Source: a virus. From it: DNA of 55,822 nt. The notes below the pieces were generated by a model. The model was not told where the DNA came from. It searched no databases and worked only from the letters and a program-made list of their open reading frames with translations. Position numbers and translations under genes: made by a program. Below, piece after piece: positions 1,003 to 23,716 of the stretch; position 1 is the stretch's first letter; each line of letters begins with the position of its first letter. The DNA is taken from the IMG/VR virus record IMGVR_UViG_3300032322_000568, positions 1-55,822 of that record, one strand, 5' to 3'.

Positions 1003-1012
1003 TCTTGGTTCC

Positions 1013-3109
1013 TTATTGGTTTGGCATCCGAGCTATCGGTGGCGTGAAATTAGAGATGTAACGGGCCACGCCTTTAGTGATTCGCAGGTCATCGATGTAG
1101 CCATTTAATGGGGCGGCGTTATCAAAGCCGGACGCAATGGAAATCCTGCCGGGGCAAGTCATTGTTGTTGAGTAGGTAGCCGTTGCAGACTGCACACCAT
1201 TCATATAAATAGCAAGGGTACTACCTGATCTGGCTAAAACAACATGCGTCCAAGTGCTTGCACTTAATGCGGACCCTGCCGTTATTCGGTCAGCATTGCT
1301 TGTAAAAAGAGCCAGCTTGCTGGAAGAGTTGATATAAAAAGCCCATCCAGAATCTGTTCCTGATGACCTAGTATCGATTAACACAATGTTACCGGCTACC
1401 GAATTAGGATAAACCCACATCTCAACCGTAAAGTCGCCCGTGTTAAACGACAACAGGTCCGTTGTTCTTCCTACCAGATAATCTCCGCTGCCATCAAACG
1501 CCATCGACCCCGTGCCGTACTTCACCACGCTGGTGCTGACTTGAGCATTTCCGACCGTTTCCAGATCGTTCATCTGGGCGTTGTCAAAGATCCCTGCGTT
1601 GGTCATGTTGAGCAGTAGTTTGGTATTGGTGATATTTGTCGGCGGTGAAGTTGGAACAGTTATTGACGTATTGCTTACGCCATACACATCAGTGCCGTTT
1701 ACAATCCTTAACCCCGCCATGTACCCGTTAGCATTACTTCCGCCGGTTTGATTTGCAGCGGCATAAATAATATTTCTCGTACTAGGTGGTGTAGGCGTTG
1801 AAGTTGACGTCCCGATGCTTGAGCCATTTACCCAGACGCGGGTGGTAGTTCCATCTCTACCAACAGCAACATGCACCCATTGACTTATTGCTGGTGCCGT
1901 TACACCAATACTGACTAGACTCCCCCCGCCTATACTGAATTGCCACTTGAACGTGGAAGTCTCGATTATCGCTTGATACGCAATTCCATTTGTTGTGTTC
2001 CATGAGTCAACACCGCCACCTTTTGAAAAAAACCACATATCCCCTGTGGCGTTTCTATAAAACCAAAACTCAAAAGTAAAAGTGCCGGTAAGGTTTAACG
2101 CAGATTCCGCCGCTGTTTCAACCGTCAGATAATCCCCACTCCCATCAAAGTACCCACTACCGCCCAGTACGCTTGCACTCCATGTGGTTGGGCCGGGGAA
2201 AGGCTGAAAGGCTTGGACGGAAGGGGTGCCGTAAACCGTGAGGGTGAACGGCGAGGCCGAGTTATCAACAAACCTGTTTGATTGGCAAGTTAAGAGTTGA
2301 GTATTTGTGATTGCTGTAAGAGGTGTGGTGGGAATGGTTAGCGTTGAACTTGACGGCGAATAAACCGAAGAACCTTTTACGACACGCAAATTGCTCATGT
2401 ACCCATTTAGTGCGTTATCTGCGCTATATCTCGCCGCAATATATGAGGTTGTCGGTGATACGTTGTAATTTGTGCTATCCGTTCCTGTAGCAACTCTAGT
2501 GCCGTTTATAAAAATAGCATAGGTAGAACTAGACCTTGTATATACAATATGGGACCATGTATTTGCCGTTAAAGCCGCACCAGTAAACGCAGTGCTTCCT
2601 GTATACCAATCAAGTCGTGTTGGATCTGTACCGTTATTATTTGTTAAAAACGCCCAAGTGCCTGTTTGACTTGAATTTCTTGCGTCAACAAAATAAACAC
2701 TGCCGGGGTTTGCTGGGAATGAATTGATATAAACAAAACACTCAACCGTAAAGTCACCTGTGCCAAACGCAAATGCAGCGCCTGAAGCAAGCGTCAAATA
2801 ATCTCCCGTCCCATCAAAATAATTACTCCAGTACCCGCTCTGCTGAAACGGCGTGAAGGCCCCCTGTGTGGTGTTGCCGTTTCTCGTGATCGTGAAGTTG
2901 TTGCTTGAGGAGTCTTGGAACGTGTTGTTTTGCGCTCCGTTAGTCCCATCACCGTGAAGCAATAGCGTGGTGTAAGGCCAATACTGATCGTTTTGCCAGA
3001 CGTTTTGTGAGGCGTAAGGGATCGTCTGGGCTTGCGTCCAGACACCCGAAGGGTAAGCAGCATTAACCGGAGAGGTGGCAATCAAGCCACCGGGATAGCG
3101 CATCGCCAT
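1013..3109 (-). CDS. Triple LamG-domain tail adhesin
   Basis: A 698-residue virion protein with three LamG-like units at about residues 95-250, 320-480 and 535-690. Each begins with an FDGxGDYL strand and carries the (F)xTGDFTVExWVYP-type strand, a WxHVVxxR strand and a GYxxxLRIxxG strand near its end. The N-terminus has RYPGGLIA, as in the neighbouring adhesin. I chose ATG 3109 (Met-Ala-Met-Arg-Tyr) because AGGAG lies 7 bases upstream; an upstream extension would overlap the preceding gene. The C-terminal LRITKGVARY segment closely matches the end of the right-edge fragment. Likely a fibre or appendage protein binding host surface glycans; the ligand cannot be predicted. Confidence 0.88.
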   Translation of the reverse strand: MAMRYPGGLIATSPVNAAYPSGVWTQAQTIPYASQNVWQNDQYWPYTTLLLHGDGTNGAQNNTFQDSSSNNFTITRNGNTTQGAFTPFQQSGYWSNYFDGTGDYLTLASGAAFAFGTGDFTVECFVYINSFPANPGSVYFVDARNSSQTGTWAFLTNNNGTDPTRLDWYTGSTAFTGAALTANTWSHIVYTRSSSTYAIFINGTRVATGTDSTNYNVSPTTSYIAARYSADNALNGYMSNLRVVKGSSVYSPSSSTLTIPTTPLTAITNTQLLTCQSNRFVDNSASPFTLTVYGTPSVQAFQPFPGPTTWSASVLGGSGYFDGSGDYLTVETAAESALNLTGTFTFEFWFYRNATGDMWFFSKGGGVDSWNTTNGIAYQAIIETSTFKWQFSIGGGSLVSIGVTAPAISQWVHVAVGRDGTTTRVWVNGSSIGTSTSTPTPPSTRNIIYAAANQTGGSNANGYMAGLRIVNGTDVYGVSNTSITVPTSPPTNITNTKLLLNMTNAGIFDNAQMNDLETVGNAQVSTSVVKYGTGSMAFDGSGDYLVGRTTDLLSFNTGDFTVEMWVYPNSVAGNIVLIDTRSSGTDSGWAFYINSSSKLALFTSNADRITAGSALSASTWTHVVLARSGSTLAIYMNGVQSATATYSTTMTCPGRISIASGFDNAAPLNGYIDDLRITKGVARYISNFTPPIARMPNQ

Positions 3110-3119
3110 GCCGCGCTCC

Positions 3120-3524
3120 TTAAGTGATCGCCTCAAACGTCGCTGTGTAAGTCAGGGCTGAAGCTGTCCCCGAAGTCACACCGACTGATTGGTTCTCCGT
3201 CACATAAAAGGAGGTGGTCTTGTCAGTCACAATCAGCGTGGTGTTGGCCGGTACGCTAATTTGATAGGCCATGTAAGACACCACCGTCGCTGATCCGAAC
3301 GTCGCGTTGTTGCCAATCGCCACCGTTGCCGTTGCTGCGCTTGAGGTGGTGTTAGAAACAACGATCTCGGTAACTCGGTTCACCGTGTTCGCTGCCGGAG
3401 TTAAGCCCGTCAGTGCAGTTGTGCCGTTATATGTCCAGTTTGTAGTGGCGGACGTTGTACTAGGAATCACATACGCAGTGTTTCCGTAAATACTCGTGAC
3501 GTTAACAATATTTGGATTTGCCAT
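3120..3524 (-). CDS. Small beta-rich virion protein
   Basis: A 134-residue Ser/Thr/Val-rich protein with no Cys and no charged clusters, typical of a beta-sandwich virion decoration or fibre-associated protein. The N-terminal NIVNVTSIYGNT and a central ITIVVSNTTSS-like pattern suggest alternating strands. It lies between a fibre-like gene and the LamG adhesins, all on the same strand with gaps under 15 bases. I do not recognise a named family; the structural role is inferred from context and composition. Confidence 0.75.
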   Translation of the reverse strand: MANPNIVNVTSIYGNTAYVIPSTTSATTNWTYNGTTALTGLTPAANTVNRVTEIVVSNTTSSAATATVAIGNNATFGSATVVSYMAYQISVPANTTLIVTDKTTSFYVTENQSVGVTSGTASALTYTATFEAIT

Positions 3525-3533
3525 GATCTATCC

Positions 3534-4016
3534 CTAGAAGCCAAAAATCATCGCCATAGCGATACTTTTACCAGTGGAAATACCTGAAGTTGCCTGGAAG
3601 GTGGGTAATGCTCCAGCACCGTTTGATGTCAGCACATGCCCCGCAGTTCCCGGTCCTGCTGAAGCCTGGAAGTTACCCGTTGCCGTGGTTCCCGTAAACA
3701 CCACGCTATAAGCCGTTGTGGTGGCAAGTCCCGTACCACCGCCTGCCACACCCAACGTGCCAAAACTCAATGTGCCTGAGCCGTCCGTTCTAATGGGCTG
3801 CCCTGCTGAACCATCAGCCGTGGGGTATAGCAAGTTTGCCGGGTTGTTCATCAGCTTGATGACCGTGCCCGAATTGTTCTTGGCAAACAGGATCATCCCG
3901 CCATCGTTGTAGTTGATGGCAAGCTCGCCGGCATTTAAGTTGCCAGCCGAGGGTTGGGTGTTGGATGCCGTGTTAGTCCGGTACAGTTGTATCGGCGTGA
4001 AATTGGTTGCTGGCAT
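3534..4016 (-). CDS. Short tail-fibre-like protein
   Basis: A 160-residue protein with features common in phage fibres: an N-terminal LNAGELAINYNDGGMI segment (the 'AGELAINxxDG' element often found at fibre heads), then Gly/Thr-rich low-complexity stretches (GVAGGGTGLATTTAYSVVFTGTT) matching repeats inside the following 734-residue fibre. The C-terminus ends in MAMIFGF. It abuts the larger fibre with no gap (stop to ATG). Probably a short fibre or a distal subunit that assembles with the large one. Confidence 0.75.
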   Translation of the reverse strand: MPATNFTPIQLYRTNTASNTQPSAGNLNAGELAINYNDGGMILFAKNNSGTVIKLMNNPANLLYPTADGSAGQPIRTDGSGTLSFGTLGVAGGGTGLATTTAYSVVFTGTTATGNFQASAGPGTAGHVLTSNGAGALPTFQATSGISTGKSIAMAMIFGF

Positions 4017-6220
4017 TAGAAAGTACCTCCGTCAATCGTTGCCCATTCGGGGGCTGAAGCGCCGGCTCTCAGGACATAACCTCGTGTGCCCAATGCCAGA
4101 GTGGATGTCGTTGATGCGCCTGTTTGATATACCAGGGAGCCTGCAGCACCGCCAGCAACATTGGTTGCCGTTGTGGCCGAGCCAGCACTACCGCTGATGT
4201 TAATGGACCAGGTACCTGAAGCGCCAGTGCCATCAGCCTTGGGTGCGCCGACGGTACTGTAGTCAATCGTGCGCGCTACCGAGCCATTAAACGTCGTGCC
4301 AGGCGAAGCGCCACCCGTATTGGTAAAGGTTACCGAGTTGGTTACAGAGCCTGCAGTTGTGGCCGTGCCCACCGTAATCGTTGCCGGGTCAGTCCACTGG
4401 GGCGCTGTACCCGATGACGTCATGATGCGCGTGGATGCGCCAATACCGAGCTTTGACAGCGTCGTGGTGCCCGAGGCGTAAAGGATGTCGCCTGCTGTGT
4501 AGCTCGTGATGTTCGTGCCGCCCGAGGCTACTGGTACCGTGTTGAGCGAGATAACTGTGCCGCTGACTTGGATCGGTGATGAGCCGGTATAAACCTGGGA
4601 CGTGCTGAACTCAGCAAAGGTAATGGCCGTGGTACCAAAGACAATCGTGCCTGCTGTCGTGCAGACATACGATGTGCCCTTGTTTACCGTGCCATTCTGA
4701 ACGAAGAAGTAATCGTTCTCACTTAAGTCATTTGTGCCCGTGCCATAGCTGTCAGCATCAGTTGCACGCGTAAGGATCGTGCCGCCCGTAGCCCAAGTGT
4801 AAATACCGTTATGGGCTTGGTTTGATTCATCCTTAACAAGGATGCGATCGCCATTGACAAGGCTGTAACCATCAAGCGTTGTCAGGGCCACGCCAAGCGT
4901 TAGCGTTGCGCCAACACCCAAGGTGCCGTTGTTATACGTTACAGAGCCACCCGTTTGCGCGGCCAAGGATTGCGTCGTTGCAGCCTGAACGGGTTGATGG
5001 TAAATCAGGCCGGTTGATGCCAGGCCATCAACGTATTGCTTCGTGGCCAGTTGATAGGCGGTTGTGGGATCTTGCGTAACGGCTACCGATGTCAGCCCTG
5101 CCAGGGTGAGACTTGTAGCACCCAAGGCAATGGACGTTGATCCAATGGTGACTGACGTGTTAGTCAGCGAAATAGTCTTGGCAGCCGAGCCGTCATACGT
5201 TGTGCCCGAGTCAAGCTGCAAGCCTGTGCCAACCGTCAGCGCATTCGGGTTGGCCGCGGTAATCGTGCCTGAAGCCCCCAGGGCTACTGTCACGCCGTTG
5301 TAAGTTACCGAGCTATTCGTAAGGCTGGCATTGCTGATGTTGGTGAGCGTATTGCTCGAACCGCTGATGGTTTTGTTGGTCAGCGTTTGTGCATCGGTCA
5401 ACGTAGCAACAACCGTGTTATCGATCGCAATGGTGCCTGTCGAGGTGATTGTGCCGCCTGTAAGGCCCGTGCCTGCAGTGATTGACGTAACACCCGTGCC
5501 GGTTGTAATCGCGCCCCAGGCGCTGTTTGCATAGCCTTCAAACGTGCCTGTTTGCGAGTTGTAGCGCAAGGTTCCGTTTGTTGGTGAGCCAGGGCGATCG
5601 CCTGTAGCACCTGATGGCAGCACAATCCCTTCAAGCCCTGGCACCACCGGATTATCAGCAAGCCCCACCGTGGGATCTGCGCCATTGCCCGTACCATTGG
5701 CCACATCGATTTCGTTGGCCGTGCCTTGTAAGGTCACAATCCCAATGCTGTTGCCACTTGTGCGGGTTAGCAAACCAACGCCAGAGGACTGCGCCAGGTT
5801 CAGCACAATACCTGAAAGCGAGATCGTAGGATCGCCTGCAATGCCGTCGCCATCAGCAACGCTCAGACCTGCCGTTCCAGCCGCAATAGAGCGGCCTGTG
5901 AGCGTTGTTGCGCTGGTCTTGACCTGAATGCCCGTCCCAGCGGCTACGAGGCTTGCAGCGGCTCCTGAGAGGCTTAGAACGAGGGTTAAGCCAGCGCCGT
6001 TATCAGTAAGCGTTAAGCCGTTGCCTGATGTTGTCAGTTGACGTGACTGGCTCAGTGAGCCTTCACTGGTTGCCGTGACAAAGCTGTAGTTGGTGACTGG
6101 CGTTGCAGCAATATCTGCCACCGTCGTTTTGACCGTGCCACCGCCTTGCACGATGGGCACAAGCTCCGTGCCAGTCAGTGCTTGCGCGGTAGGTAGCTGG
6201 GTGATGGTTTGATTGGCCAT
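4016..6220 (-). CDS. Large tail fibre protein
   Basis: A 734-residue fibre dominated by Gly/Thr/Ser/Val repeats (GTGVTSITAGTGLTGGTITS, ATTAGSVTNSVTFTN), which generally form long beta-structured trimeric shafts. The first 40 residues (ITQLPTAQALTGTELVPIVQ) match the N-terminus of the protein at 8038-8622, suggesting a shared virion-attachment segment. It includes FVQNGTVNKGTSYVCTT and LATKQYVDGLASTGL elements familiar from phage fibres. The gene is flush with its neighbours on both sides. The adsorption role is inferred; the receptor is unknown. Confidence 0.85.
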   Translation of the reverse strand: MANQTITQLPTAQALTGTELVPIVQGGGTVKTTVADIAATPVTNYSFVTATSEGSLSQSRQLTTSGNGLTLTDNGAGLTLVLSLSGAAASLVAAGTGIQVKTSATTLTGRSIAAGTAGLSVADGDGIAGDPTISLSGIVLNLAQSSGVGLLTRTSGNSIGIVTLQGTANEIDVANGTGNGADPTVGLADNPVVPGLEGIVLPSGATGDRPGSPTNGTLRYNSQTGTFEGYANSAWGAITTGTGVTSITAGTGLTGGTITSTGTIAIDNTVVATLTDAQTLTNKTISGSSNTLTNISNASLTNSSVTYNGVTVALGASGTITAANPNALTVGTGLQLDSGTTYDGSAAKTISLTNTSVTIGSTSIALGATSLTLAGLTSVAVTQDPTTAYQLATKQYVDGLASTGLIYHQPVQAATTQSLAAQTGGSVTYNNGTLGVGATLTLGVALTTLDGYSLVNGDRILVKDESNQAHNGIYTWATGGTILTRATDADSYGTGTNDLSENDYFFVQNGTVNKGTSYVCTTAGTIVFGTTAITFAEFSTSQVYTGSSPIQVSGTVISLNTVPVASGGTNITSYTAGDILYASGTTTLSKLGIGASTRIMTSSGTAPQWTDPATITVGTATTAGSVTNSVTFTNTGGASPGTTFNGSVARTIDYSTVGAPKADGTGASGTWSINISGSAGSATTATNVAGGAAGSLVYQTGASTTSTLALGTRGYVLRAGASAPEWATIDGGTF

Positions 6221-6561
6221 TATGGTGACACCGCTATTCCATCAAGGTTCCCATTGTTCTCAGGCGTCTGGGTGTTGCCTTCCGTCGAGACAATGACATT
6301 TTGCTGATCCGTTGTCACCAGATTATCCTGGATTGCGGCCACCGATACATCAGGCCTTGGAAAGCGCAGGTTGATGCGCTCCGTTTGCCGGGCTGGCAGG
6401 CGATACGGATCTTTCTCGTCTCTGCAATTTTCTTCACACACCATCAGCCCTGGGAAGTTAATGTCAGGTCCCAGCGTGGCGTGAGGGCGCTTCATGCGGC
6501 AACGATCGCAAATACCAATTGCGATGTCGCTGTAGCCCTCCGTGTCAAGAAACATTGGCAT
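6220..6561 (-). CDS. Conserved small virion-associated protein with a four-cysteine motif
   Basis: 113 residues. The N-terminal half has CDRCRMKRPHATLGPDINFPGLMVCEENC, that is CxxC...CxxxC, a plausible zinc knuckle, followed by DPYRLPARQTE and a Pro-rich stretch (INLRFPRPDVSV). The C-terminal third is polar and probably disordered. Similar short Cys proteins sit beside adaptor genes in environmental podovirus-like phages. Its start overlaps the adaptor stop codon, so translation is probably coupled. Function unknown; a head-tail joining accessory role is a guess from position. Confidence 0.7.
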   Translation of the reverse strand: MPMFLDTEGYSDIAIGICDRCRMKRPHATLGPDINFPGLMVCEENCRDEKDPYRLPARQTERINLRFPRPDVSVAAIQDNLVTTDQQNVIVSTEGNTQTPENNGNLDGIAVSP

Positions 6562-7631
6562 TATTTTGTGTAAACCGAGATGTTGGGGGCAAAGTAAATC
6601 GGGCTGCGATCGCGCTCTTCAGCCTCAGCCAGTGCCAGGTACTTGCCAGCCTGATCCTCGAGGTATTTGATGCGCTCCATGGGCACAGCAGGTAATTCCA
6701 TGCTCAATTGGTGCGCCAACATGCCAATCGTGGCCAGATACCACCGCTGCGGAATCTGCAATTCATCGGTCAGATCGCCCACATCCATGATTTGCTTGGA
6801 ATACCAGACGGTCATTTGCACATACCACTCATTGGGCACCGGCCAGAGGTAAATTTCAGGCTGTGGGACCGTCCGATTGAACCAAAACTGGTAAGGCTGA
6901 TTGGCCGTAAAGTTTTTGTTGGGCAAATTGGTGTAATCATCACGATTAAGCCTTGCCATTTGGATTTCACGCGAGTTATTGCCCACATAAAACTCACGCA
7001 AGGCTAGTGTCGTGCCGCCAGAGGCCCTTACTCGGTAGTATTGGACGCTCTGACCGGGGTCAATGTCATACCAGGCCCACTTTTTGTCGGTTACAACCAC
7101 TGATCCGATGTCATACAAGGTGTTCCAGGTAATAGCATCGGTCGAATACTCGAGGGTGAGAGTCCATGTGGCACTTCCACCACCAGAAACATAGGGGAGC
7201 AGGCCGATTGACCCAGCATAAATCGGGTTGCTGGTGCCAAAATTGATCGCAATATTGCCATTCGTGCTTGTTTGCAGGCAGTAGGTATCAACATCATCAT
7301 CCCCGGCGTAGGCTGCATTGCCACCAGCGCTGCTCGAGTAGCTGCCAGCAGGCCGTGTCATGGTCCGGTAGAGCACATTCAGTGCGTCATTGGCGCCCAC
7401 TGGCAGGGTGTAAATGTACTTTTCTGGCGTAAGGCCGATGACTTCCTTCTTCACAGCCCAGTATTGGATACCGATGTTGATCAGGTTGGTCAGCGTAAAA
7501 CCCAGCGACTCGCGCGCGGTCAGCAATTGCTCGCTGGTTAGCTCTTCAGCAAGCTTGCCACAGCGTCTTGCCGCGTGGTCAATCAGCGTTTGGACGTTAA
7601 AAACCTGACCGTAGGTATCGGAATAAGACAT
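6561..7631 (-). CDS. Head-to-tail adaptor-like protein with an inserted beta domain
   Basis: 356 residues. The N-terminal helical part (TLIDHAARRCGKLAEELTSEQLLTARESL) and the C-terminal part (YLWPVPNEWYVQMTVWYSK, LQIPQRWYLATIGMLAHQL) have the layout of P22 gp4/T7 gp11-type adaptor or tail-tube proteins that dock under the portal. Between them, about residues 100-220, lies an extra beta-rich segment (YAGSIGLLPY, WTLTLEYSTDAITWNTLYD, YYRVRASGGTTLALREFYVGN) resembling a discoidin/F5-8C-type fold. ATG 7631 follows a 1-base gap from the gene before. Role inferred from architecture and context. Confidence 0.72.
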   Translation of the reverse strand: MSYSDTYGQVFNVQTLIDHAARRCGKLAEELTSEQLLTARESLGFTLTNLINIGIQYWAVKKEVIGLTPEKYIYTLPVGANDALNVLYRTMTRPAGSYSSSAGGNAAYAGDDDVDTYCLQTSTNGNIAINFGTSNPIYAGSIGLLPYVSGGGSATWTLTLEYSTDAITWNTLYDIGSVVVTDKKWAWYDIDPGQSVQYYRVRASGGTTLALREFYVGNNSREIQMARLNRDDYTNLPNKNFTANQPYQFWFNRTVPQPEIYLWPVPNEWYVQMTVWYSKQIMDVGDLTDELQIPQRWYLATIGMLAHQLSMELPAVPMERIKYLEDQAGKYLALAEAEERDRSPIYFAPNISVYTK

Positions 7632-9205: not shown

Positions 9206-10255
9206 CTAGCACGCGCCGCCTGCTTTGCGCCTTGCTTGGGGTGGTGTTACTGTGACCGATTCTTTGGTCTCAGTGACTGATCCCTTACCGCGGATCTTGT
9301 CCATTAACTTGCCACCAAGCTCTTTGACCATGCTTACGGGATTCAAGGCATCCTCAAGCTCACGCTTGGCTTTCGCCGCGGTGGCCTCGGGATCAGCAAC
9401 AGGTTTGGATACGTCCACTTTACCGCCCGTGTCGTATTTGACCTTGCCGCCCTTCTTGAACGTGCCCGATTGAATGGTGTTAGCTACAGGCTTGGATACT
9501 GGGTGCTTGGGGTAGGCTACGGGTTTGCCTGAATCAACAAGCCCCCCCGTAGCGTAGTGCTTTTTTAAGGCACCACCTTTCTTGAAGCCGCCAGCATTGC
9601 CCTTCTTGACTTCGCCTGTGGTGGTATTGCTTACACCAGGCTTGGACGTTGAGACATTACCCTCAACGCCGCCACCCTTGGCATAAGCAGAGCCGCCACG
9701 CTTGTAGCCACCAGGCTTGCCCATGGACACTTCACCCGTCTTTTTAGGCGTGTGATGCTCACCTTCAGCCGTGTCCATCTTGGTTTTGTCATAGCCCTTG
9801 GCGCCCTTCTCGGATGCTGCTACTTTGATGATGCCGCCATCTTTGTAGCCACCCTGGCCCATTACCACACCGCCGGTTGCAAGGCCTTTGTGGGCCTTCG
9901 ATGCTGGCATGGAAGCGTGCTTTTTAAGCTTAGCCTCAGTGCCTGCCATCTTCTTCATTTCGGCTGCGTGTTCCGCCTTGGACTCGCCACCTTCCTTCAT
10001 CATGGGGCGCGCCATCTTGCGACGCATGGCCAATGATGGACGTGCAGGTGCGCGGCCAGGTAACGTACCCTGACCCATCTGCATGCGGCTTGGAGCCGGG
10101 CCTTCAGCAAGTCCAGCCATCACGCCGCCGTTCATCATTTTGTGGCCATCCGACTTGCCACCATGCTTCATGGAAACATGACCGCCTTTTTTGAGCTTCA
10201 GAATGACTGAAGGCTCAGTGGTCATCATTTTGACCATCGGCTTGAATTGGCCCAT
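9206..10255 (-). CDS. Lys/Gly-rich GG-motif repeat protein, probably virion-associated
   Basis: 349 residues, strongly basic and low in complexity. It carries about a dozen copies of a short motif of the form aromatic/Lys-x-x-Gly-Gly-x-(Val): GYKDGGII, GYKRGGSAY, YAKGGGVEG, GFKKGGALKK, YATGGLVDS, TFKKGGKV, YDTGGKVDV. Linkers contain SKPGVSNTTTGEVKKG and SKPVA elements. The C-terminal ~60 residues are helical and charged, ending RRKAGGAC. There is no signal peptide or membrane segment. It sits next to capsid genes. Such proteins recur in environmental phage genomes without a known role; DNA condensation or binding of packaged proteins is plausible but unproven. Confidence 0.8.
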   Translation of the reverse strand: MGQFKPMVKMMTTEPSVILKLKKGGHVSMKHGGKSDGHKMMNGGVMAGLAEGPAPSRMQMGQGTLPGRAPARPSLAMRRKMARPMMKEGGESKAEHAAEMKKMAGTEAKLKKHASMPASKAHKGLATGGVVMGQGGYKDGGIIKVAASEKGAKGYDKTKMDTAEGEHHTPKKTGEVSMGKPGGYKRGGSAYAKGGGVEGNVSTSKPGVSNTTTGEVKKGNAGGFKKGGALKKHYATGGLVDSGKPVAYPKHPVSKPVANTIQSGTFKKGGKVKYDTGGKVDVSKPVADPEATAAKAKRELEDALNPVSMVKELGGKLMDKIRGKGSVTETKESVTVTPPQARRKAGGAC

Positions 10256-14657: not shown

Positions 14658-14815
14658 TTTTTCTTAGCCGGCAGTGCGCCTCCTTTGGTCTTGGGTTGCT
14701 GGGTTTGGCCTTTGGATTGCAGGCTGGTGCCGTCAAGGTTTGCACCCATCGCAATGCGCTTGTGATAAGGCACGGCCTCGAGGTCTTTGATGTCTTTACT
14801 GGATGGTTGGGCCAC
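14654..14815 (-). CDS. Small basic protein with GTG start
   Basis: 53 residues: Val(Met)-Ala-Gln-Pro-Ser-Ser-Lys..., then VPYHKRIAMGANLDG, ending in a basic TKGGALPAKKK tail. GTG 14815 lies 5 bases after AGGAG and overlaps the end of the portal gene; the stop overlaps the next GTG (GTGA). The ribosome site and two-sided coupling argue that it is real although short. The KGG-A tail resembles the GG motif in other late proteins here. Function unknown. Confidence 0.62.
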   Translation of the reverse strand: MAQPSSKDIKDLEAVPYHKRIAMGANLDGTSLQSKGQTQQPKTKGGALPAKKK

Positions 14816-17363
14816 GATTAGCTCCTAAGTTGCGTTGTGCTTCGTTTTGAAGCCGGATAGCAGTCTCATACTGCTCTGCCTGCAATTGCTCATCCTTCTG
14901 GGTGAGTTGTGCAGTTGCTATGCGCTCCTTGGTGAGGTTGTTTGTAGCGTTAAGCGCCACATCCAACTGATCACGCTCGGCTGCGCGTTGTTGATCGCCT
15001 TGCAGTCGTGCCATGTCAATCTGGCCACGTTGCTGCATGTCGGCACCTTTGAGTTGCATCTCAGCCTGATCGCGCTGTGCGCGGCGCTGGGTTTCTGCCA
15101 GGCTGGTTTCCTTGAGCACTTGCGCTTCAGGCGGCAGTTGCGGCTGGGGCGTAAGTTGCTGCATGGCTTGCATGAGTTGCTGCAGCTTGGGCACCATTTG
15201 CTGGAAGGCTGCGTTGGTGTCTTGCATGACATGCTGCGATGCAATAGCAAAGGTCTTGTCGATTTCCGAGGTCAGCATCTTGTTCTCGTAATCGCTCTCT
15301 GCCATGGGCTTGCCACGGGCCTTGTTTACATAGCCATTCATGCGACCTAAGTACCATAAGACCATGTGCTGCTTGATGTGCTCAAGCACCCGCGGCAGGT
15401 AGAACGATGCCATGATGGGATTGCCACCAAAAGCAGGATTAAGCGCGAAGTCCAGGTGCGTTTGGATGTGCGATAACTGGTCCTGGTGCGGGTAGGCGTA
15501 GGCATTCTGACCCAGTGCCATGGCCACATTCTCATCAGATGCTGGGCGCTCCTCGGGAACCGGGGTGCCTTTGAGCAATTCGTTGATGCCAGGGATCTTT
15601 AGCTGCTTGAGCAGGCGCTCTTCAACCGCACGGCGGTCATACAGGTCAGGTGCCTTGTCTGATCGTGCCAAAACCGCCTGAATCTGCGCCATGCGCTGGG
15701 TTTCAGAAAAGATATTGGGGTCTGAGACGGGTACCACATCTCCCATGCGCTCAAAATCGCCGGGTTGGACCTCCAGATCGACCACATCCTCACCGCGGCG
15801 CATGTCTTCGATGTACCAGCGGTTAAGGCGCTGCAAAATCTTCAGTACGCGGCCCTGTGACTTGTGCAATCGAGCATGAATAGCCGAAAACACGGCGGCA
15901 CCCTGCTCAATCAGTGCTTGTGTCGTGCCAACAGGAGCCTGGGAATTGATGTCAGCGATCTTTTCCTCGGCGGTGGTCACTACACCCTTGGCAGCCTTGT
16001 CTAAGTAGCCCAAAAGCTCAAATAACACGGGGCTTGGCGGGTTAAACGGCATGGGCATTGCAATCTTGCGGATGTCATCCACGCCTGGTGCAGCTTCAAT
16101 CTCGACCACCTGCGTCACATCGGCCTGAACGGACTGGCCTGAGACCTTGGCACCCTTCAATTTGAGCGTGGCAGGGGCGTTATTGATGTGCGCGGCATCT
16201 AAAAGCGCCCGTAAGCTTCCAGTAAGTGCTGCTGCCAGGCCACCAATGAGGTGGGGCATCCCAATAGCGTAGGCACCGCGCCAGGGAATGAACTTGTACT
16301 CGACCACCCAGTCGAGTTTTTCCATGGTTTCATCACCTTCTTCCCAGTTTCGGTACAAGCCGACCACTTCACGGTCGATTTCATCCACCATCAGGATGTA
16401 AGGCGCCATTTCACCCTTGGAATAAGTGTCATCTTCAAGCTCGAGGTAGGTGTAAATGTGAAAAACACGGCGCATACCGTCGATGTTTTCCTCTGCTTTA
16501 CGTCCTTCGATCTTGTTGTTGGCTTTTTCTGGCCGAGTTGGCTCAGGTTCCAGGCTTACGCGAGTCAAACTGATGTCACGGTACAAGCCTGAGTCAATTC
16601 GTTGGTTGAATTCAAACTCAGTGATGTCATGAATCTCTGCAGCACGCTGTGCGGTGTAAAAATTCGTGGCTGCAAACGGGATCAGGACCTTGTCAATCGG
16701 CAAAAACTCAGCCACCGGGCGCAGTTTTTTGTCATCCCAGTACAGTTTTAGGTACTGCGAGCCGCCAAGGGGCAGTTGCGTGAGCAGTTGCTCTTGCTCA
16801 TCGCGGAATTCTTCGATCTGCTCGGTTAGCTGCCAGTTCATCCAGTCGCGTTTGCGCTCTGCACGCTTGGTTTTTTCCTCATCAGTCTCACCAAGGATCT
16901 TGGTTTTGACCGGGCCATCAGGTGGGAATAGCTCCTTGATGGTCCTTGATGCGAAATCCACGCAAGCTTCAGCAATAACCGGGTGTACTACCTTGCTGGC
17001 ACCGAAGAACGTAGCGCCACCAGGGGCGTCTTTGCCCATGCCCGTGCGCTTGATGCCCTCTTCGTACTGCTTATCGCGGTCTTCGCGCGCTGTCTGGTCC
17101 TTTTTCAGCAGGTCCAAGTAGCGCATGGCCATCGAATCCAAATCCATGGGATCGATAACATCGGCCAGGTTCTCGTAAAAGTCAGGATCTTCAAGCGGCC
17201 CTTTGGTGCTTGGCATGTGAACTACTGCCGAGCCGTCAGGAAGCTCCTCAATCTCAGCAGTTTCATCGGGCAACTCGGCTGACATATCAGCAACGGGCAC
17301 CTCATCATCGGCCATACCGCTAATGAAGCGGCCATAGTCCTGCTCAATAGGCATCTCAGGCAT
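14796..17363 (-). CDS. Portal protein (P22-type)
   Basis: 855 residues, longer than P22 portal (725). An acidic N-terminal ~80 residues leads into the portal core: RDKQYEEGIKRTGMG, FFGASKVVHPVIAEACVDFASR, LFPPDGPVKTKILG, then KRDWMNWQLTEQIEEFRDEQEQLLTQLPLGGSQYLKLYWD, a pattern I know from P22-like portals of aquatic phages. The C-terminal 130 residues form a long Gln/Glu/Ala-rich coiled coil like the portal barrel. ATG 17363 (Met-Pro-Glu-Met-Pro) follows GAGG and overlaps the upstream stop (ATGCCTGA). Portal forms the DNA-entry vertex where the terminase docks. Confidence 0.88.
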   Translation of the reverse strand: MPEMPIEQDYGRFISGMADDEVPVADMSAELPDETAEIEELPDGSAVVHMPSTKGPLEDPDFYENLADVIDPMDLDSMAMRYLDLLKKDQTAREDRDKQYEEGIKRTGMGKDAPGGATFFGASKVVHPVIAEACVDFASRTIKELFPPDGPVKTKILGETDEEKTKRAERKRDWMNWQLTEQIEEFRDEQEQLLTQLPLGGSQYLKLYWDDKKLRPVAEFLPIDKVLIPFAATNFYTAQRAAEIHDITEFEFNQRIDSGLYRDISLTRVSLEPEPTRPEKANNKIEGRKAEENIDGMRRVFHIYTYLELEDDTYSKGEMAPYILMVDEIDREVVGLYRNWEEGDETMEKLDWVVEYKFIPWRGAYAIGMPHLIGGLAAALTGSLRALLDAAHINNAPATLKLKGAKVSGQSVQADVTQVVEIEAAPGVDDIRKIAMPMPFNPPSPVLFELLGYLDKAAKGVVTTAEEKIADINSQAPVGTTQALIEQGAAVFSAIHARLHKSQGRVLKILQRLNRWYIEDMRRGEDVVDLEVQPGDFERMGDVVPVSDPNIFSETQRMAQIQAVLARSDKAPDLYDRRAVEERLLKQLKIPGINELLKGTPVPEERPASDENVAMALGQNAYAYPHQDQLSHIQTHLDFALNPAFGGNPIMASFYLPRVLEHIKQHMVLWYLGRMNGYVNKARGKPMAESDYENKMLTSEIDKTFAIASQHVMQDTNAAFQQMVPKLQQLMQAMQQLTPQPQLPPEAQVLKETSLAETQRRAQRDQAEMQLKGADMQQRGQIDMARLQGDQQRAAERDQLDVALNATNNLTKERIATAQLTQKDEQLQAEQYETAIRLQNEAQRNLGANRGPTIQ

Positions 17364-20300
17364 GTTTGTATCCTCGTTTAACGCTATCAAGCGCTGACTT
17401 CTTCACGGCGCCGCCCTTCTTTTTCTCGGTGCGGACATCGGGCAACGGCACTTTTTTGCTGTAGTAAGGCATCAAGACACCTTCGCCCGTTTCAATCATG
17501 TCAAGCAAGTAGTTGCGCACATTGCGTGGCGTGGGCTTCACGCCCATGCCGTTAAGCGTATAAGCGGCTTGGCGCTCAAGTAAATCTAATGCGTCACCGC
17601 GGGGCGATACTAACCCGGTCAATTCGCCACCACCAAACCAGCGGCCAGCTTGTGCCGTGCCGCCAGGCAGGCCTAAGCCCTTAGCGATGTCCAGCATTTG
17701 CTGTTCTGCAGCGCCATACTCAGTTGAGCCAAATCCACCCTGCTTAGTAAAGTAAGGGTGAAAGCGGCTTGCTTGTGTTTCGCCCGATGCCTCATGCACA
17801 TCAAGCACCACTGACTTGCCAAAGTCACCGGCCTTTTGCGTGCCATAAGTTGGGATTTTGTAATTGACTGGTATGTCTGCTTTTGACAACTCGCGCAGGT
17901 CAAGATTGCCTTCAAGGACATTTCTCACGCCTTCACGATGTACGGGCATCAATGGCAGACCAGTGCCGTACTTTTGCTTGAATGCTTCCATCTCGCGCTT
18001 GACGGTTTCCTCATCAAGCGGCAAGCCTCGCGCATTCATATCGCGCAGGAATTGGCCGACTGCCATTTCATTTAGGATGGAGTTGCGCGCCGATGCCGGA
18101 GCAGTGCTGTAGATAAACTGATTAAATTTTTCCTCGGGTATGCCGCGCTCAAGTGCCGCCATCTTCATGGGATAAAGCGAGGGGTAAAAAGTTTCACCGC
18201 CCAGGGGCAGCCCGCGTTTGATCTGCATCTCAATGAGCGCTCGATTGCGCGGGTCTTGGTAAATCTCGTCGATGTAACCAATGTTGGCCCTTGGGGGCGA
18301 GTAGCGCGGGAATGCTGTTTGTTCAATGCCAGGAAAGCCTTCCATGGCGTCTTTGATGAGCGATCGATCAAATGCCTGCAGTTCAGCACGCGGCGGCTGC
18401 CAAGGCTCGGTGGGTTGCGCGAGGAACTCTTCGGCCTTTTGGGCGCGTCGTTCAACAGCCTCGGGCACATTCTGTAAGCGATCGCCTATTGATGCGGAGG
18501 CGGGTGCATCAATCAATTTGCCAAATTTCTTTTCAAGGGCCGGTTTTTGTTGCTTGGTCCAAGTAAGGTTTTTCTCGGCAATTGCAGCGGCGCGCTTTTG
18601 CACATCTTCCGGCGCCATGTTGGGATCTTCTTTAGCGATGGCCTTGGCCACCTTGTTGGCTTCATTCCTTAGCTCACGCGCTGTATAAGCCACAGCTTTA
18701 GATGCTTTGGCAATCTTTTCAAGCTTACCGCCGCCAGCCATGCGCACAGCACCGCCCATGGCTAACTCAAGCGCCATGGTGTCAGGGTTGTCAGATATGT
18801 GAACTCGCCTCATGGGACCACCCTGCTTGTAAGGGGTTACTGGCACTTTGCCAAACATCACGGCGCTCGGCTTCGTTGACTGTGGATTGATGTAACCGGC
18901 ATATCCATAGTCGCGGATTAATCGCTCGAGCGCATTGGTTGCCTCAGTAGGCTGCGCCAATCCTTTGTTAGAGCTTGCCGTCATCGGGATGCGCGTGGTT
19001 TCTTTGGCCAGCATGTTAAGCATGAGAGGGTCAGCCGCCAGGTCATAAAGATTTTCACCCATGGCACGATAACGATGGGGTCCTAAGCCAGGCTCAGGTG
19101 TCACGCTTTCATCGGTGTAGAAGTAAGTCCTGGGTCTGACCGAGCCAGTGCCACCTAAACGCGCGGCCTCCTCGCCCTTGATGCCCGTGCCGTAAAACGC
19201 CGGATCTGTTTCAGTCAACCCTGCCTGCTTGCTGAAGTGCATCATGGGCATGTTGACGAAGGTGCCTTCCTCGGGCTTGATCAGTCCTCGCAAGTAATCA
19301 GGCATCTCGCCTTCGTACTTTGTGCTTAAAAACTCGGGTGGCAAAAGCACTGGCTTTTGTGGGGCAAACTGAAAACCATTCCATGCTTCTTTCAACTGTG
19401 AATCAATCTCTTTGACTAGTTCAGTTTTGCCGCGACGATTGGCCTCGTAGCGCTGCATGTTCAGTTCATTGATGGTGCGCTTGAGTGCGGCATTCAGTGG
19501 GGTGTAGTTAACCGTACTGTTTTGGCCTCGTGTCTCAGTGCTCATAGCCAAGCGTGCAAGGGGCGAGTACATCTGACTGTGGGCTGCCCAAGCAGTCTCC
19601 TCGCCCTTGGGACCAAACTCGTTGCCGTGAATTGCATGGCCAAAGAAGTCATGCACAGCACGAAACTTTTCATTCTCATTCAATCCTGTTTCAGGATCGA
19701 CAGCTTTTAAGTAGGGATGCTCATCGCCACCCTGGAAGACATACAGGTGCTTGTTGCCATAAACATCTTGCAGCATTTGCTTGCTGTTGCGATAGTTTCC
19801 TTCGCCTGCTCGATGATACGAAAGGCTGATCGGAAGACGCTTAAATTGCTCATTGGTTTCCTTAGCCATCTGTCGGTAGGAAGCGGCCACCAACTCGTCA
19901 TAATTTTTTGCGCCTGATTGCTTAATGACTTCAGGCATTTGCCTGGCATATTCATTGAAGATGGTTTGTTTATATGTCGGGTCTTCAGTGGTCGCAAGCA
20001 TGAAGGCGCGGCCAATGGGCGCCTGCTTGAAGATGGAGCTTTCAGAAATCTCTGGCAGTTCATAAGGCCTGCCGAAGGCCTCTTGCACATAAGTGTCTGC
20101 TGACTGACGAACAAAGTTCGCCGGGTCAGCCATTACTTGCTGTACTGCTTCATTCGTAATTGGTTGCGGAACATCGCTTCCAGTTCCTCCTGCGGGACGC
20201 TGTCCGGCTTCAGTCCCATCGCTTTCGAGCGTGCCTCGACGCTGGCCTGCAGGCGCTTGAGAGACGCTAGGACGGACGCGGTAGAACGGTCCTTCTGTGG

Positions 20301-21612
20301 CTGTTTCATATGTCACTCCTTGGACAGGAATTGTCGCAGCCTTTGGTGCTGAGACTTCAGGAATATTTGCTTTTGTTGCTGTTTTTGCCACACCTTTAAT
20401 TGCTCCCACTGCGCCAGGCATGGCTGCGGAAGTCCACATTTGGGGAAGGATGGGCGGCAGCTTAGACTCGCGTATCAGGCGCTCTAAGCCCTCGGCGGTG
20501 CTCTCAAGGTACTCAGGGCCAAGCTCCGTCTGCATGGGCCTCATATCGCCTGTAATGAAGTCCTGAGAGGCTTCTATGGCGCGCTGTAATGGCCCTGTGT
20601 CTGAAGGGTCGCCGCTCTTGATTGCTTCTTTGATAAAGGTGCCGGCAGTGACGGCAGGTGATACCAAGGTGCGACCAACAATCGGCAGGCCCGTAAGTGC
20701 TGCATCAATACCGCCAGCGAAACGCGGGGCCACTGACTCGATGTCTTGCAAAATGTTGCCTTGGCCATAGCCTGGCAATGAGGACACACCGCGCTTGGGC
20801 GTCTTGCCCATGAAGCGGTCAGTGGGATCGCCACCGTCTTGCATGTGGACTACGCCGCCAGTGCGGTATTCCTGCTGGCCTTTATCACCAAACCTAGCCT
20901 GGAGTAAAGGCGTCAAACCCTGGTAGCTTGATCCAAGCTCCTCGTCTTCAGGCTGCTTCGTTAAGGGCTGAATGTCAGCGGGAGCGCCTAATAAATCCTC
21001 TTTCCATTTTGGGAATGCCTCATTCCAAATCTCTGCTTTTATATCTCTTGGCTGATCAACCGCCGATTCGGTCATCGTGTAAGCCAGCGGGTTTTGCAGC
21101 ACATTCACAAAGGTTGAGGCCAGCGCAGGATTCTCATAAACCTGCCATGCAGCCTCGTCAATCTCTTGGCGATTAAGCTTATCTAATGGGTCCGAGCCAT
21201 GGTACTTGGGCACTGAGTCAAAGCTGTTAGGCCCCGTAGGCTGCGTTTGACTAATCAAATCCGAAAGACCACTTGTTAAAGCGTCCACATATTCAGGATC
21301 AAGATCCTTGATGCGACCAAGCAACTCTGCTGGCGACTGGACATCTGCGATGTACTCGCCAATTTTCGGTGTGTAAATGCGATCCAGACCCTTCAATAAA
21401 TTCCACGCGTCTTCTTCAGGAAGGATTGTTAAGTCATCCTTTACTTGATCGAGCGGCGTACCACCACCTTGCAAACCAACTGCACCGCCACTAGCGTATT
21501 CGAAGTCCTCGGGATTGCCGCGGATGGGCTTCTTGCCCAGCACGACGGCAGGCTTGGGCGCACCGTACAGCATCTCGAGTACCTTCTTCGCGTCTGTTGG
21601 CTTGGGCATCAT
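17356..21612 (-). CDS. Giant multi-domain (polyvalent-like) protein between terminase and portal
   Basis: 1418 residues. Visible segments: GG-motif elements near the N-terminus (YASGGAVGLQGGG, YRTGGVVHMQDGG); a Gly/Ala-rich hydrophobic stretch about 295-415; a conserved-looking domain about 520-760 with HDFFGH (654-659), GNEFGPKGEE and ETRGQNS; a region about 800-940 with YGTG (807), a TYFYTDE strand, LERLIRDYGYAGYI and AVMFGKVPV, resembling ADP-ribosyltransferase-like domains of polyvalent phage proteins; another GG motif near 950-970; a helical linker; and a C-terminal domain with VLDVHEASG (His1273) and a QAxxW-like QAGRW, reminiscent of the phage domain DUF7178. The tail ends KKKGGAVKK. 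It may be packaged and injected to act early; all domain names are tentative. GGAGG precedes ATG 21612. Confidence 0.8.
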   Translation of the reverse strand: MMPKPTDAKKVLEMLYGAPKPAVVLGKKPIRGNPEDFEYASGGAVGLQGGGTPLDQVKDDLTILPEEDAWNLLKGLDRIYTPKIGEYIADVQSPAELLGRIKDLDPEYVDALTSGLSDLISQTQPTGPNSFDSVPKYHGSDPLDKLNRQEIDEAAWQVYENPALASTFVNVLQNPLAYTMTESAVDQPRDIKAEIWNEAFPKWKEDLLGAPADIQPLTKQPEDEELGSSYQGLTPLLQARFGDKGQQEYRTGGVVHMQDGGDPTDRFMGKTPKRGVSSLPGYGQGNILQDIESVAPRFAGGIDAALTGLPIVGRTLVSPAVTAGTFIKEAIKSGDPSDTGPLQRAIEASQDFITGDMRPMQTELGPEYLESTAEGLERLIRESKLPPILPQMWTSAAMPGAVGAIKGVAKTATKANIPEVSAPKAATIPVQGVTYETATEGPFYRVRPSVSQAPAGQRRGTLESDGTEAGQRPAGGTGSDVPQPITNEAVQQVMADPANFVRQSADTYVQEAFGRPYELPEISESSIFKQAPIGRAFMLATTEDPTYKQTIFNEYARQMPEVIKQSGAKNYDELVAASYRQMAKETNEQFKRLPISLSYHRAGEGNYRNSKQMLQDVYGNKHLYVFQGGDEHPYLKAVDPETGLNENEKFRAVHDFFGHAIHGNEFGPKGEETAWAAHSQMYSPLARLAMSTETRGQNSTVNYTPLNAALKRTINELNMQRYEANRRGKTELVKEIDSQLKEAWNGFQFAPQKPVLLPPEFLSTKYEGEMPDYLRGLIKPEEGTFVNMPMMHFSKQAGLTETDPAFYGTGIKGEEAARLGGTGSVRPRTYFYTDESVTPEPGLGPHRYRAMGENLYDLAADPLMLNMLAKETTRIPMTASSNKGLAQPTEATNALERLIRDYGYAGYINPQSTKPSAVMFGKVPVTPYKQGGPMRRVHISDNPDTMALELAMGGAVRMAGGGKLEKIAKASKAVAYTARELRNEANKVAKAIAKEDPNMAPEDVQKRAAAIAEKNLTWTKQQKPALEKKFGKLIDAPASASIGDRLQNVPEAVERRAQKAEEFLAQPTEPWQPPRAELQAFDRSLIKDAMEGFPGIEQTAFPRYSPPRANIGYIDEIYQDPRNRALIEMQIKRGLPLGGETFYPSLYPMKMAALERGIPEEKFNQFIYSTAPASARNSILNEMAVGQFLRDMNARGLPLDEETVKREMEAFKQKYGTGLPLMPVHREGVRNVLEGNLDLRELSKADIPVNYKIPTYGTQKAGDFGKSVVLDVHEASGETQASRFHPYFTKQGGFGSTEYGAAEQQMLDIAKGLGLPGGTAQAGRWFGGGELTGLVSPRGDALDLLERQAAYTLNGMGVKPTPRNVRNYLLDMIETGEGVLMPYYSKKVPLPDVRTEKKKGGAVKKSALDSVKRGYKHA

Positions 21613-21648: not shown

Positions 21649-23079
21649 TTAGCTTGCATACGGATTGGTCCTCGTAATGCCTGCGTCCACATAATCCTCG
21701 GGATCGTAATCATCAGGCGGTAGCGGGTCGATGTTGAGCCAGCTTGCATCTCTGAGGTATCTGAGTGCCTGGCTGAAGGCATCGCAAAAGTCATCGTGGT
21801 CGGTATTCGGGAAGCTGCAGATCTGCGTGACCATGGCCTCAGCCCAGTCGCGGACATAGCCCGGCCTGTTGCTCGACTCGGGCACATACACCCTTCCTGC
21901 CTTCACGATGTTGGCCACAATGCTCAGGCGCTGGATCTTGTCAGCCCTGCCGGGGTTGTAGGCCCTCACGGGGATGTGTGCGCGCTGCAAGTCCTGGATC
22001 AGCACGATGCCGGCAGCCTTGTCCTCGACCAGGACGAGGTCCACCTTCTTGGCGGTCTTGCCCTCACCGAAGATGATCTCGAACTCGTCAATGACCTTGG
22101 GCTTCAGGTCAGGGTACTGCAGCCTGTCCTGCCAGGCGTCGATGATCAGTACGCACATGCCACCGTCAGTAGGTTTGAAGACACCGAAAGTGATGCTTGC
22201 AGTGGGATCGTTGACCGTCTTCTCCGTGTAGGCGCAGTCATAGGACTGGACCACATACTCGAGCTTGGGTATGGGTTTGTCAGCAGGCCAAAGCTTGAAC
22301 CAATCCCGTTGGACTATACCTCCTTCCTCGGGGTCGATGATCTCAGCGTAGATCTCCTGCCTTCCAAGCTTGGTGCCCTCGTACTGCAGGATCTGGCGCT
22401 TGAAGTTCTCACTCAGATTATCCAGGTTTGAGTAAGTGCTTGCCGTGGTAAGCACTACATCATCGCCCTCGCGGCTGATCAGATCGATGATCAGGTCCTT
22501 GGGCTTGGGTGTTGTCGTGCAGATCAGCCTGGTCTTCATGTCAGGCAGCTTCAAGCGCATACCAAACTGGATCTGGTCCCAGGCTTCCTGGATGTACTCC
22601 CAGGCGGCTAACTCATCGAGCCAGCCACCGTGGAACTGTGGACCGCGGAAGCGCTCAGGCTCCGAGGCGGGTATGCCCTTGATCAGCGAGCCGTTGGTAA
22701 GCTTGATCTCATGCAAGGCCTTGTTGTAATCAGCGATCAGGACCGCAGGAATCACGCTCAGGAGGCCCGAATCGCCCTCGAAGCATGTACCCCTTACGTC
22801 ACTGCTCGTTGGGGCCGCCACGAGCCATCTGGTGGCTTTGTAGGACTGTGCCCACCAGCCAATCTGCTCGGCTGCAGTTCGAGTCTTGCCGGCACCGCGG
22901 CCTGCCAGCATGAGCCATATGGACCACCAATCCCCGTGCGGTAGGATCTGGTGCTTGAGTGCTCGAGTGAGCCACATCATGCGCCAGGCCCAGGCAGCAG
23001 CCGCCTGTGGCTCTAGCCTGGTGTACTGCTCGCGGATCTGTGGATCTTTGAGCAGGGCCTCAAGGTCACTTGTCCCCAA
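21649..23079 (-). CDS. terL: Terminase large subunit
   Basis: 476 residues: the ATP-driven packaging motor and nuclease. Walker A is LAGRGAGKT (58-66), Walker B is WLDE (153-156), and a motif III-like CTTTPKP lies at 188-193. The RNase H-like nuclease half has SYDCAY (D281), LVED (E352, D353) and the closing DHDDFCDAF (D427-D433). The start is uncertain: TTG 23079 overlaps the small-subunit stop, while the first in-frame ATG (residue 34) would remove part of the adenine-binding N-terminus. It should cut concatemers and pump DNA through the adjacent portal. Confidence 0.95.
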   Translation of the reverse strand: MGTSDLEALLKDPQIREQYTRLEPQAAAAWAWRMMWLTRALKHQILPHGDWWSIWLMLAGRGAGKTRTAAEQIGWWAQSYKATRWLVAAPTSSDVRGTCFEGDSGLLSVIPAVLIADYNKALHEIKLTNGSLIKGIPASEPERFRGPQFHGGWLDELAAWEYIQEAWDQIQFGMRLKLPDMKTRLICTTTPKPKDLIIDLISREGDDVVLTTASTYSNLDNLSENFKRQILQYEGTKLGRQEIYAEIIDPEEGGIVQRDWFKLWPADKPIPKLEYVVQSYDCAYTEKTVNDPTASITFGVFKPTDGGMCVLIIDAWQDRLQYPDLKPKVIDEFEIIFGEGKTAKKVDLVLVEDKAAGIVLIQDLQRAHIPVRAYNPGRADKIQRLSIVANIVKAGRVYVPESSNRPGYVRDWAEAMVTQICSFPNTDHDDFCDAFSQALRYLRDASWLNIDPLPPDDYDPEDYVDAGITRTNPYAS

Positions 23080-23626
23080 GCTGTCTCTTAGCCTCGAGGT
23101 TCTTGAGCATGGCGTCGAAGATACTAATGTCAGCCTGCACGGCTACGGGATTGTCAGCATCGCCAGCGTGAGTCAATCTCTCACCGTACTTTTTGGGGTT
23201 CCACTTGGCCAGCAGCTTGAGCCGTGTCTCGATCTGCAGCTTGCGGTGGCCAAGCATGTCCTCCCTGGTGACTATGATGCCGCCTTCAGTCTCGACCTGC
23301 TTGGTACCCCACTTGGGCGTGTCGGCTAGCTCGAGGCACTCCTCGGCCATCTTGTCGTAGCCGATCTCCCGTGCGCGTGCGATCGCTCTGGAAAGACCGA
23401 CGCCCTCCGCACCCAAAGCATCATCCCGATACATCCAGTCATATATCGTTTGCCATGCTGGCATACCTTCATCTCGGCATATCTGTCTCAGTGGCTCAGC
23501 GTTGCTTAAGCGCTCCACGATCTCTTGTGCGATCTCGGGGGTGTATTTGCTGGGGCGGCCAGTTTTCTTGGGCGCGGCCTGGGCTTTGGGTTTGGCGGTT
23601 TTGGGCATCACATCTTCCAGTGACAT
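23066..23626 (-). CDS. terS: Terminase small subunit
   Basis: 186 residues from ATG 23626. An alternative ATG at 23608 has a better GGAAG site 5 bases upstream. Lys/Ala/Pro-rich start, then GRPSKYTPEIAQEIVERLSNAEPLRQICRDEGMPAWQTIYDWMYRD, the helix-turn-helix of small terminase/DNA-binding family proteins. A central helical part (AIARAREIGYDKMAEECLELAD) and RKLQIETRLKLLAKWNPKKYGERL complete the classic small-subunit layout. It recognises the packaging site and is directly upstream of, and overlapping, the large subunit. First gene of the late block, just after a terminator. Confidence 0.9.
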   Translation of the reverse strand: MSLEDVMPKTAKPKAQAAPKKTGRPSKYTPEIAQEIVERLSNAEPLRQICRDEGMPAWQTIYDWMYRDDALGAEGVGLSRAIARAREIGYDKMAEECLELADTPKWGTKQVETEGGIIVTREDMLGHRKLQIETRLKLLAKWNPKKYGERLTHAGDADNPVAVQADISIFDAMLKNLEAKRQLGDK

Positions 23627-23716
23627 AAGATCCGCAGATGATAGGGTTTTGGTGGGCTGGTGGCAATTGCTTGCGCAAGGCAAGGTCTAACTGATTGATT
23701 TTACTACAGCTTTACC

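Follow-up and report, generated by a model that had tools for sequence, protein, structure and literature searches.

Polyvalent proteins bring disparate enzymes together for delivery in the first minutes of infection, and it is a published inference that phages of the terminase-portal type package them (PMC5512222). A second point of comparison is the anti-CRISPR protein AcrIF11 (PDB 6KYF), an ADP-ribosyltransferase (ART) that acts on Csy1 (PMC12421852). Protein P0001, encoded in a 55.8 kb virus record (hereafter the window, meaning the whole stretch of DNA analyzed), resembles the polyvalent proteins in combining several unrelated predicted enzyme domains, an ART among them, in one polypeptide of a terminase-portal phage whose gene lies beside head genes. 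It differs from those described in containing a domain, here called HDxxGH, that no Pfam model matches in any of 83 aligned members. Moreover, entire cassettes distinguish it from relatives that are otherwise nearly identical, and one relative has a RadC-like domain.

P0001 is specified by a single open reading frame of 1418 residues on the minus strand (17356-21612, stop codon included), and the opposite strand is packed with stop codons across the same interval. The frame belongs to a minus-strand gene series that runs from TerS (23066-23683) and TerL (21649-23079; Pfam Terminase_6N, 1.9e-21) through P0001 (21612-17356) to the portal gene (14796-17390; phrog_1216, 3e-12), the longest possible portal frame being overlapped by that of P0001 over some 35 bases. 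The initial annotation placed the gene between terminase and portal, and this placement holds beyond the window, since TerL, the polyvalent gene and the portal gene follow one another in the same orientation in 36 of 36 viral loci having both genes. Elsewhere in the window, a minus-strand gene (1013-3136) encodes a 707-residue protein of tail or baseplate type that matches the concanavalin-like lectin family Laminin_G_3 (E 8.7e-56) in more than one domain.

Assignment of P0001 to the polyvalent class follows from its composition and position. Specifically, at least two unrelated predicted enzyme domains are present (HDxxGH, ART-fold and DUF7178-like), and the gene adjoins the head genes of a terminase-portal phage, in agreement with the polyvalent architecture originally proposed. 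A Pfam search of the window protein matched no family, ART-PolyVal included, and returned no peptidase domain able to cut the protein into units. The known polyvalent domains (ART-PolyVal, MPTase, LPDs) are usual in such proteins, but the published definition does not require them, and because no polyvalent Pfam model is matched, the assignment rests on architecture and fold. We lean toward, and consider reasonably probable, a reading of P0001 as a delivered polyvalent effector with at least two enzymes, an ART and a metal-dependent HDxxGH enzyme for which a hydroxylase-like iron site is likeliest, and with a payload varied by cassettes.

By analogy with its class, P0001 probably travels inside the virus particle and is passed on to the bacterium: expressed together with the head genes, it would be enclosed in the capsid and reach the host along with the DNA, a route that we infer from gene position, conserved gene order and the published class. 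A protein made late that acts within the producing cell, in assembly or superinfection exclusion, and is never injected would fit the existence of stand-alone chromosomal relatives that have no phage delivery context (see below); we regard this as unlikely, given the conserved place of the gene in the head module and the inferred packaging of polyvalent proteins by terminase-portal phages (PMC5512222).

The middle of P0001, at residues ~779-930 (18823-19278, minus strand), has an ART fold in the predicted structure. Modeled with AlphaFold, residues 770-1418 have a mean pLDDT of 68, with values of 65-91 across most of the ART part, and Foldseek ranks AcrIF11 (6kyf) first for this model (probability 1.00, E 0.034, TM by target 0.53). 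The top five PDB matches are AcrIF11, two chains each of the MbcT toxin and of tankyrase; Arr follows further down. An ART-like domain had been suspected from the motifs YGTG at residue 807 and AVMFG at residue 917, both of which lie where reported; the suspicion is borne out by fold, at an E-value of only 0.03 and in a model of the stated mean confidence. Identity to AcrIF11 is 12%, and the ART part, unlike the anti-CRISPR protein, is embedded in a chain of 1418 residues. Among 45 homologues, H792, R828, Y832, E840, D861 and E896 are invariant, and candidates for the catalytic triad (H/R - Y/S - E/D) are H792, Y832 and one of the three invariant acids E840, D861 and E896. Such a domain would modify a host protein, probably one of defence, using NAD+.

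The C-terminal domain (residues ~1100-1395; 17428-18315, minus strand) contains the motifs VLDVHE (1269) and QAGRW (1321), from which kinship to DUF7178 was first suggested. That kinship is supported as a remote one: blastp links the domain to homologues at 22-24% identity, and three members of alignment A6 match DUF7178 (PF23802; best E 8.4e-7), whereas P0001 itself falls below the threshold of that model.

The HDxxGH domain (residues ~520-760; 19333-20055, minus strand) corresponds to phrog_3170 in the PHROGs collection (E 1.9e-17 for P0001 and 1.9e-17 to 2e-38 overall), where it is listed without function. A tblastn search covering residues 556-704 found 203 phage records (best E 4e-22), a few of them via the ART region only; 187 are mycobacteriophages, and the others include Rhodococcus phage E3 (gp205), Gordonia phage Skog and Planktothrix phage Pag-Yong1, whose protein is annotated as a 'large polyvalent protein'. 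The depositors of E3 labeled gp205 a 'structural protein'; as no virion proteomics of that phage was found in the open-access literature, the label is cited here as annotation only. In one pattern scan each, the domain was confirmed in at least 583 viral stretches among 600 candidates, and found in 104 contig stretches from species genomes.

Conservation within the domain is concentrated in a small number of residues. In the 83-member alignment (A3), N647, F650, R651, H654, D655, G658, H659, F666, G670, E671, H678, E693, T694, Q697 and N698 are invariant; these include H654, D655 and H659 of the HDFFGH motif (residues 654-659; 19636-19653, minus strand) as well as E693 and Q697 of ETRGQNS (residues 693-699; 19516-19536, minus strand), and both motifs, like GPKGEE at 668-673, lie at the residues originally given. 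A polar set, N-FR-HD-(G/A)H-F-GE-H-E-Q, is common to phage and chromosomal members, and H-[DE]-x-x-G-H, the iron motif of aromatic amino acid hydroxylases, is present in members, with G replaced by A in some. Because the pattern scan and the motif filter applied in building the profile both favour conserved motifs, the 28 chromosomal relatives that the filter had dropped were also inspected. All 28 retain F-R-H-D-(G/A)-H-F-G-E-H-E-x-Q, while D616, T694 and N698 vary among them; as every one of them was retrieved by a single pattern out of two short ones, it is the motif covered by the other pattern that gives the less biased evidence. None of the 83 members has a credible Pfam match, LPD models included, and the stand-alone members searched against Pfam and NCBIfam fall in no family. 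The open-access literature yielded neither a description of the domain nor a function for its relative LKA1 ORF7. The initial annotation had suggested that HDxxGH could be the metal site of an enzyme of no known kind. This is well supported: three His (two of them in the motif), two Glu, an Arg, an Asp and a Gln are retained in a domain that is otherwise divergent and has no Pfam model. Judged by these residues, HDxxGH is probably a metal-binding enzyme domain without a name. It would act as a metal-dependent enzyme in the host, the likeliest metal site being H654, H659 and E693, with E671 and H678 nearby.

When A3 was supplied to AlphaFold2, the domain was modeled confidently (pLDDT 94.1, pTM 0.90). 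The fold is mostly helical, yet it is not merely that of a helical tail-type domain, as enzymes head the list of its PDB neighbours and the polar positions are maintained. Every one of the first 19 PDB matches from Foldseek is a hydroxylase of tryptophan, phenylalanine or tyrosine, with E-values of 0.02-0.69, none of the matches falling under 1e-3, and TM-scores of 0.10-0.14; the best of these hydroxylase matches has E 0.02, TM 0.13 and rmsd 18 A. The likeness of HDxxGH and its downstream Glu to the hydroxylase iron site had been written down ahead of the structure searches. Using comparison hydroxylases drawn from PF00351-positive genomes, hhalign aligns the HDxxGH profile at E 3-5e-4 and sets HDFFGH on HDVFGH, with a score of 34.4 against a maximum of 22.0 in 100 column-shuffled profiles, a match that depends mainly on the HDxFGH motif.

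The resemblance to aromatic amino acid hydroxylases (PF00351) thus lies in the H-D-x-F-G-H motif, in the best fold neighbours and in a conserved Glu, placed 34 residues past the motif in the HDxxGH domain and about 40 in the hydroxylases. Around the predicted site the model comprises a strand, a helix, a strand, a helix bearing both His, a further helix and a helix bearing the Glu, an order that appears to agree with that of the hydroxylase core. Against these similarities stand the low TM-scores, the lack of a PF00351 match in P0001, anywhere in the window or in the 83 members of A3, and the additional invariant residues E671 and H678, for which we know of no hydroxylase counterpart. Global hhalign of the domain against hydroxylases fails, and PDB sequence searches with the protein or the A3 profile returned nothing useful. 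In addition, the subgroup profiles vary in their response: the actinobacterial profile matches hydroxylases at E 7e-5 and the phage profile at E 0.011, the Bacteroidota/Proteobacteria profile aligns off the motif, and a family of small early-phage proteins (alignment A5, below) gives no match (E 0.037). Since the subgroups disagree and the TM-scores are low, hydroxylase-like chemistry is a lead rather than a membership, and with so marginal a resemblance a tentative one. Were it correct, the site would work like the 2-His-1-carboxylate iron site of the hydroxylases, and the enzyme would oxidize or hydroxylate its target, either a host one or a nucleic acid.

Roughly an even chance is given to HDxxGH being a metalloenzyme whose fold and chemistry are unrelated and undescribed, such as a hydrolase or a nuclease, and in which the HDxFGH motif arose by convergence. 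The low TM-scores to hydroxylases, the conservation of E671 and H678 to the same degree as the proposed ligands and the lack of a Pfam family are all consistent with such an origin, which is harder to reconcile with 19 best PDB neighbours that belong to one family and share the motif, and with a motif-aligned profile score above all 100 shuffles. Membership in the HD-superfamily phosphohydrolases, suggested by a local HD-x-x-G-H look-alike and a mostly helical model, was also considered and rejected as highly improbable: comparison with 15 HD domains (PF01966) gave profile E-values of 0.38-0.51, and the 50 PDB matches listed include no entry of that description.

Relatives of the domain occur outside polyvalent proteins. 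Firstly, Foldseek searches of BFVD with the HDxxGH model retrieve small phage proteins of 159-206 residues (probability 0.99-1.00, E 0.002-0.05), among them LKA1 ORF7; phi15 ORF2, like LKA1 ORF7 from a T7-like Pseudomonas phage, is also a homologous small early protein. In the alignment of this small family (A5; phrog_7806), the conserved positions are N, FR, HD, H, E, an acidic residue and DQ; compared with the A3 profile, it gives a match with probability 92.7 and E 4e-7. Its genes lie near the left end (1.3-3.7 kb) of T7-like genomes, which is the early region, as exemplified by the distant members LKA1 ORF7 (L209, 3662-4228) and the small early-region proteins of two T7-like phages (L210, 1329-1820; L213, 1878-2459). 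A further member of the small family is found in Gordonia phage Yvonnetastic (L212, 939-1292), in which no gene is annotated under the match.

Secondly, in 11 loci from Bacteroidota and Proteobacteria, a stand-alone HDxxGH copy of ~290 residues adjoins a gene for an AdoHcyase-like NAD-binding protein of ~350 residues. A DUF3293 gene also adjoins in 10 of the 11; it is fused to the HDxxGH copy in L120 and L122, which come from one genome, and was not found in L130. The neighbourhood (L113, L115-L117, L119, L120, L122 and L130, and with another gene order L114, L118 and L159) spans Bacteroidota, Gamma- and Alphaproteobacteria, and no description of it was found. Thirdly, in 27 Micromonosporaceae-type loci, an HDxxGH copy of 220-265 residues lies near a gene resembling type I methyltransferases, accompanied in 24 of the 27 by a Ser/Thr kinase gene; in most of these loci the stand-alone gene sits between the two (within L121-L162, mostly Micromonosporaceae; for example L138, 2409-6486). 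This neighbourhood is possibly a defence-like locus. Its methyltransferase and kinase match PADLOC defence models, which are broad; PADLOC gives no match for the HDxxGH domain, the AdoHcyase-like protein or DUF3293.

Given these stand-alone early-phage and chromosomal copies, the HDxxGH domain is not confined to polyvalent proteins, and what phrog_3170 lists as a function-less family is here tied to stand-alone chromosomal genes and to the early T7-like family. A broader proposal, which we put forward as speculative, is that HDxxGH is the first known member of a new superfamily of hydroxylase-like enzymes with non-heme iron, found in chromosomal operons, early T7-like genes and virion-borne polyvalent effectors, in which oxidative modification would serve take-over or counter-defence and cassettes would be exchanged at repeated GG linkers.

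GG motifs had been reported at both ends of P0001, and they are found there and between, at residues 42, 252, 931, 953 and 1400. The first linker, ASGGAVGLQGGG, covers residues 39-51 (21460-21498), the second, GGVVHMQDGGDPTDRFM, residues 249-262 (20827-20868) and the third, GGPMRRVHISDNPDTMALELAMGGAVRMAGGG, residues 931-962 (18727-18822), and a C-terminal GG motif lies in the GGAVK region (17410-17424), all on the minus strand. Relatives that are 92-99% identical over shared DNA encode proteins of 1193 to 2564 residues, a spread that reflects which domain cassettes (a GNAT, a RadC-like one and others) each of them has, with junctions mostly at the repeated GG-rich linkers. Cut at these linkers, the alleles can be compared as series of the same cassettes: C-G-E-D-A-B in L003, C-F-E-D-A-B in L004, C-E-D-A-H in L014, F-A-B in the window and A-B in L006, L008, L010 and L013. 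Cassette F (residues 42-251; 20860-21489, minus strand) is present in the window, L002 and the L004/L005 and L018-type alleles and absent from L003, L006-L008 and L014. The extra cassettes include a GNAT domain in L003 and a RadC-like JAB domain in L014 (residues 1794-1904 of the frame at 575-6901; Pfam 3e-12); in the 2017 survey of polyvalent proteins, RadC is listed only for conjugative elements (PMC5512222).

Two segments of L004 are missing from the window allele, one of 211 residues, which in L004-type relatives follows residues 1-35 (21508-21612, minus strand) in frame, and one of 611 residues between two GG linkers. Its second linker is a hybrid junction, gene nucleotides 769-792 matching both linkers that border the 611-residue segment of L004. 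The sequence is as expected from a 611-residue deletion between direct-repeat GG linkers, although the difference may represent a loss or a gain. The first junction, after residue 35, is not at a GG linker, and the repeats therefore explain only part of the variation. Single alleles may reflect misassembly at repeats in metagenome assemblies; L002 has exactly the form of the window, and other architectures recur in several contigs. With domains set on repeated GG-rich linkers, the population would vary its payload by in-frame loss or gain of whole cassettes, mostly at those linkers.

Two other proteins of the window also contain GG-rich sequence. A low-complexity protein of 349 residues (9206-10255, minus strand), whose gene adjoins that of the capsid, is full of GG-x-V motifs like those of the P0001 linkers, and the motif may be a virion-association or processing element common to both. 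A protein of 1845 residues (42088-47625, minus strand) combines a long repeat region rich in Ser, Thr and Asn with a C-terminus rich in GG, after which comes SDDIPAWLADGEFVFPADVV.

The linkers and the large differences between alleles, together with the position between terminase and portal and the annotation of E3 gp205, could also be read as those of a head protein with a structural or scaffolding role, in which the domains would be inactive, degenerate passengers. This appears more doubtful still than action within the producing cell: catalytic-type residues are kept in all homologues compared, stand-alone chromosomal copies hold the same residues, and whole domains come and go in frame, which resembles payload exchange rather than decay.

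Three results are new as far as was found: an active site predicted for HDxxGH, the connection of this domain with early genes of T7-like phages and with two gene neighbourhoods in bacteria, and the variation in cassettes among near-identical phages. A widespread unannotated domain, present in the viral and genome stretches counted above, can thereby be given a predicted active site, and it connects three contexts, namely phage polyvalent proteins, the region that T7-like phages express first and conserved bacterial operons. As the chromosomal and early-phage versions, at 160-300 residues, are small enough to purify, its activity is directly testable, and the close alleles of P0001 constitute a natural experiment on the retention and loss of effector cassettes by a phage.
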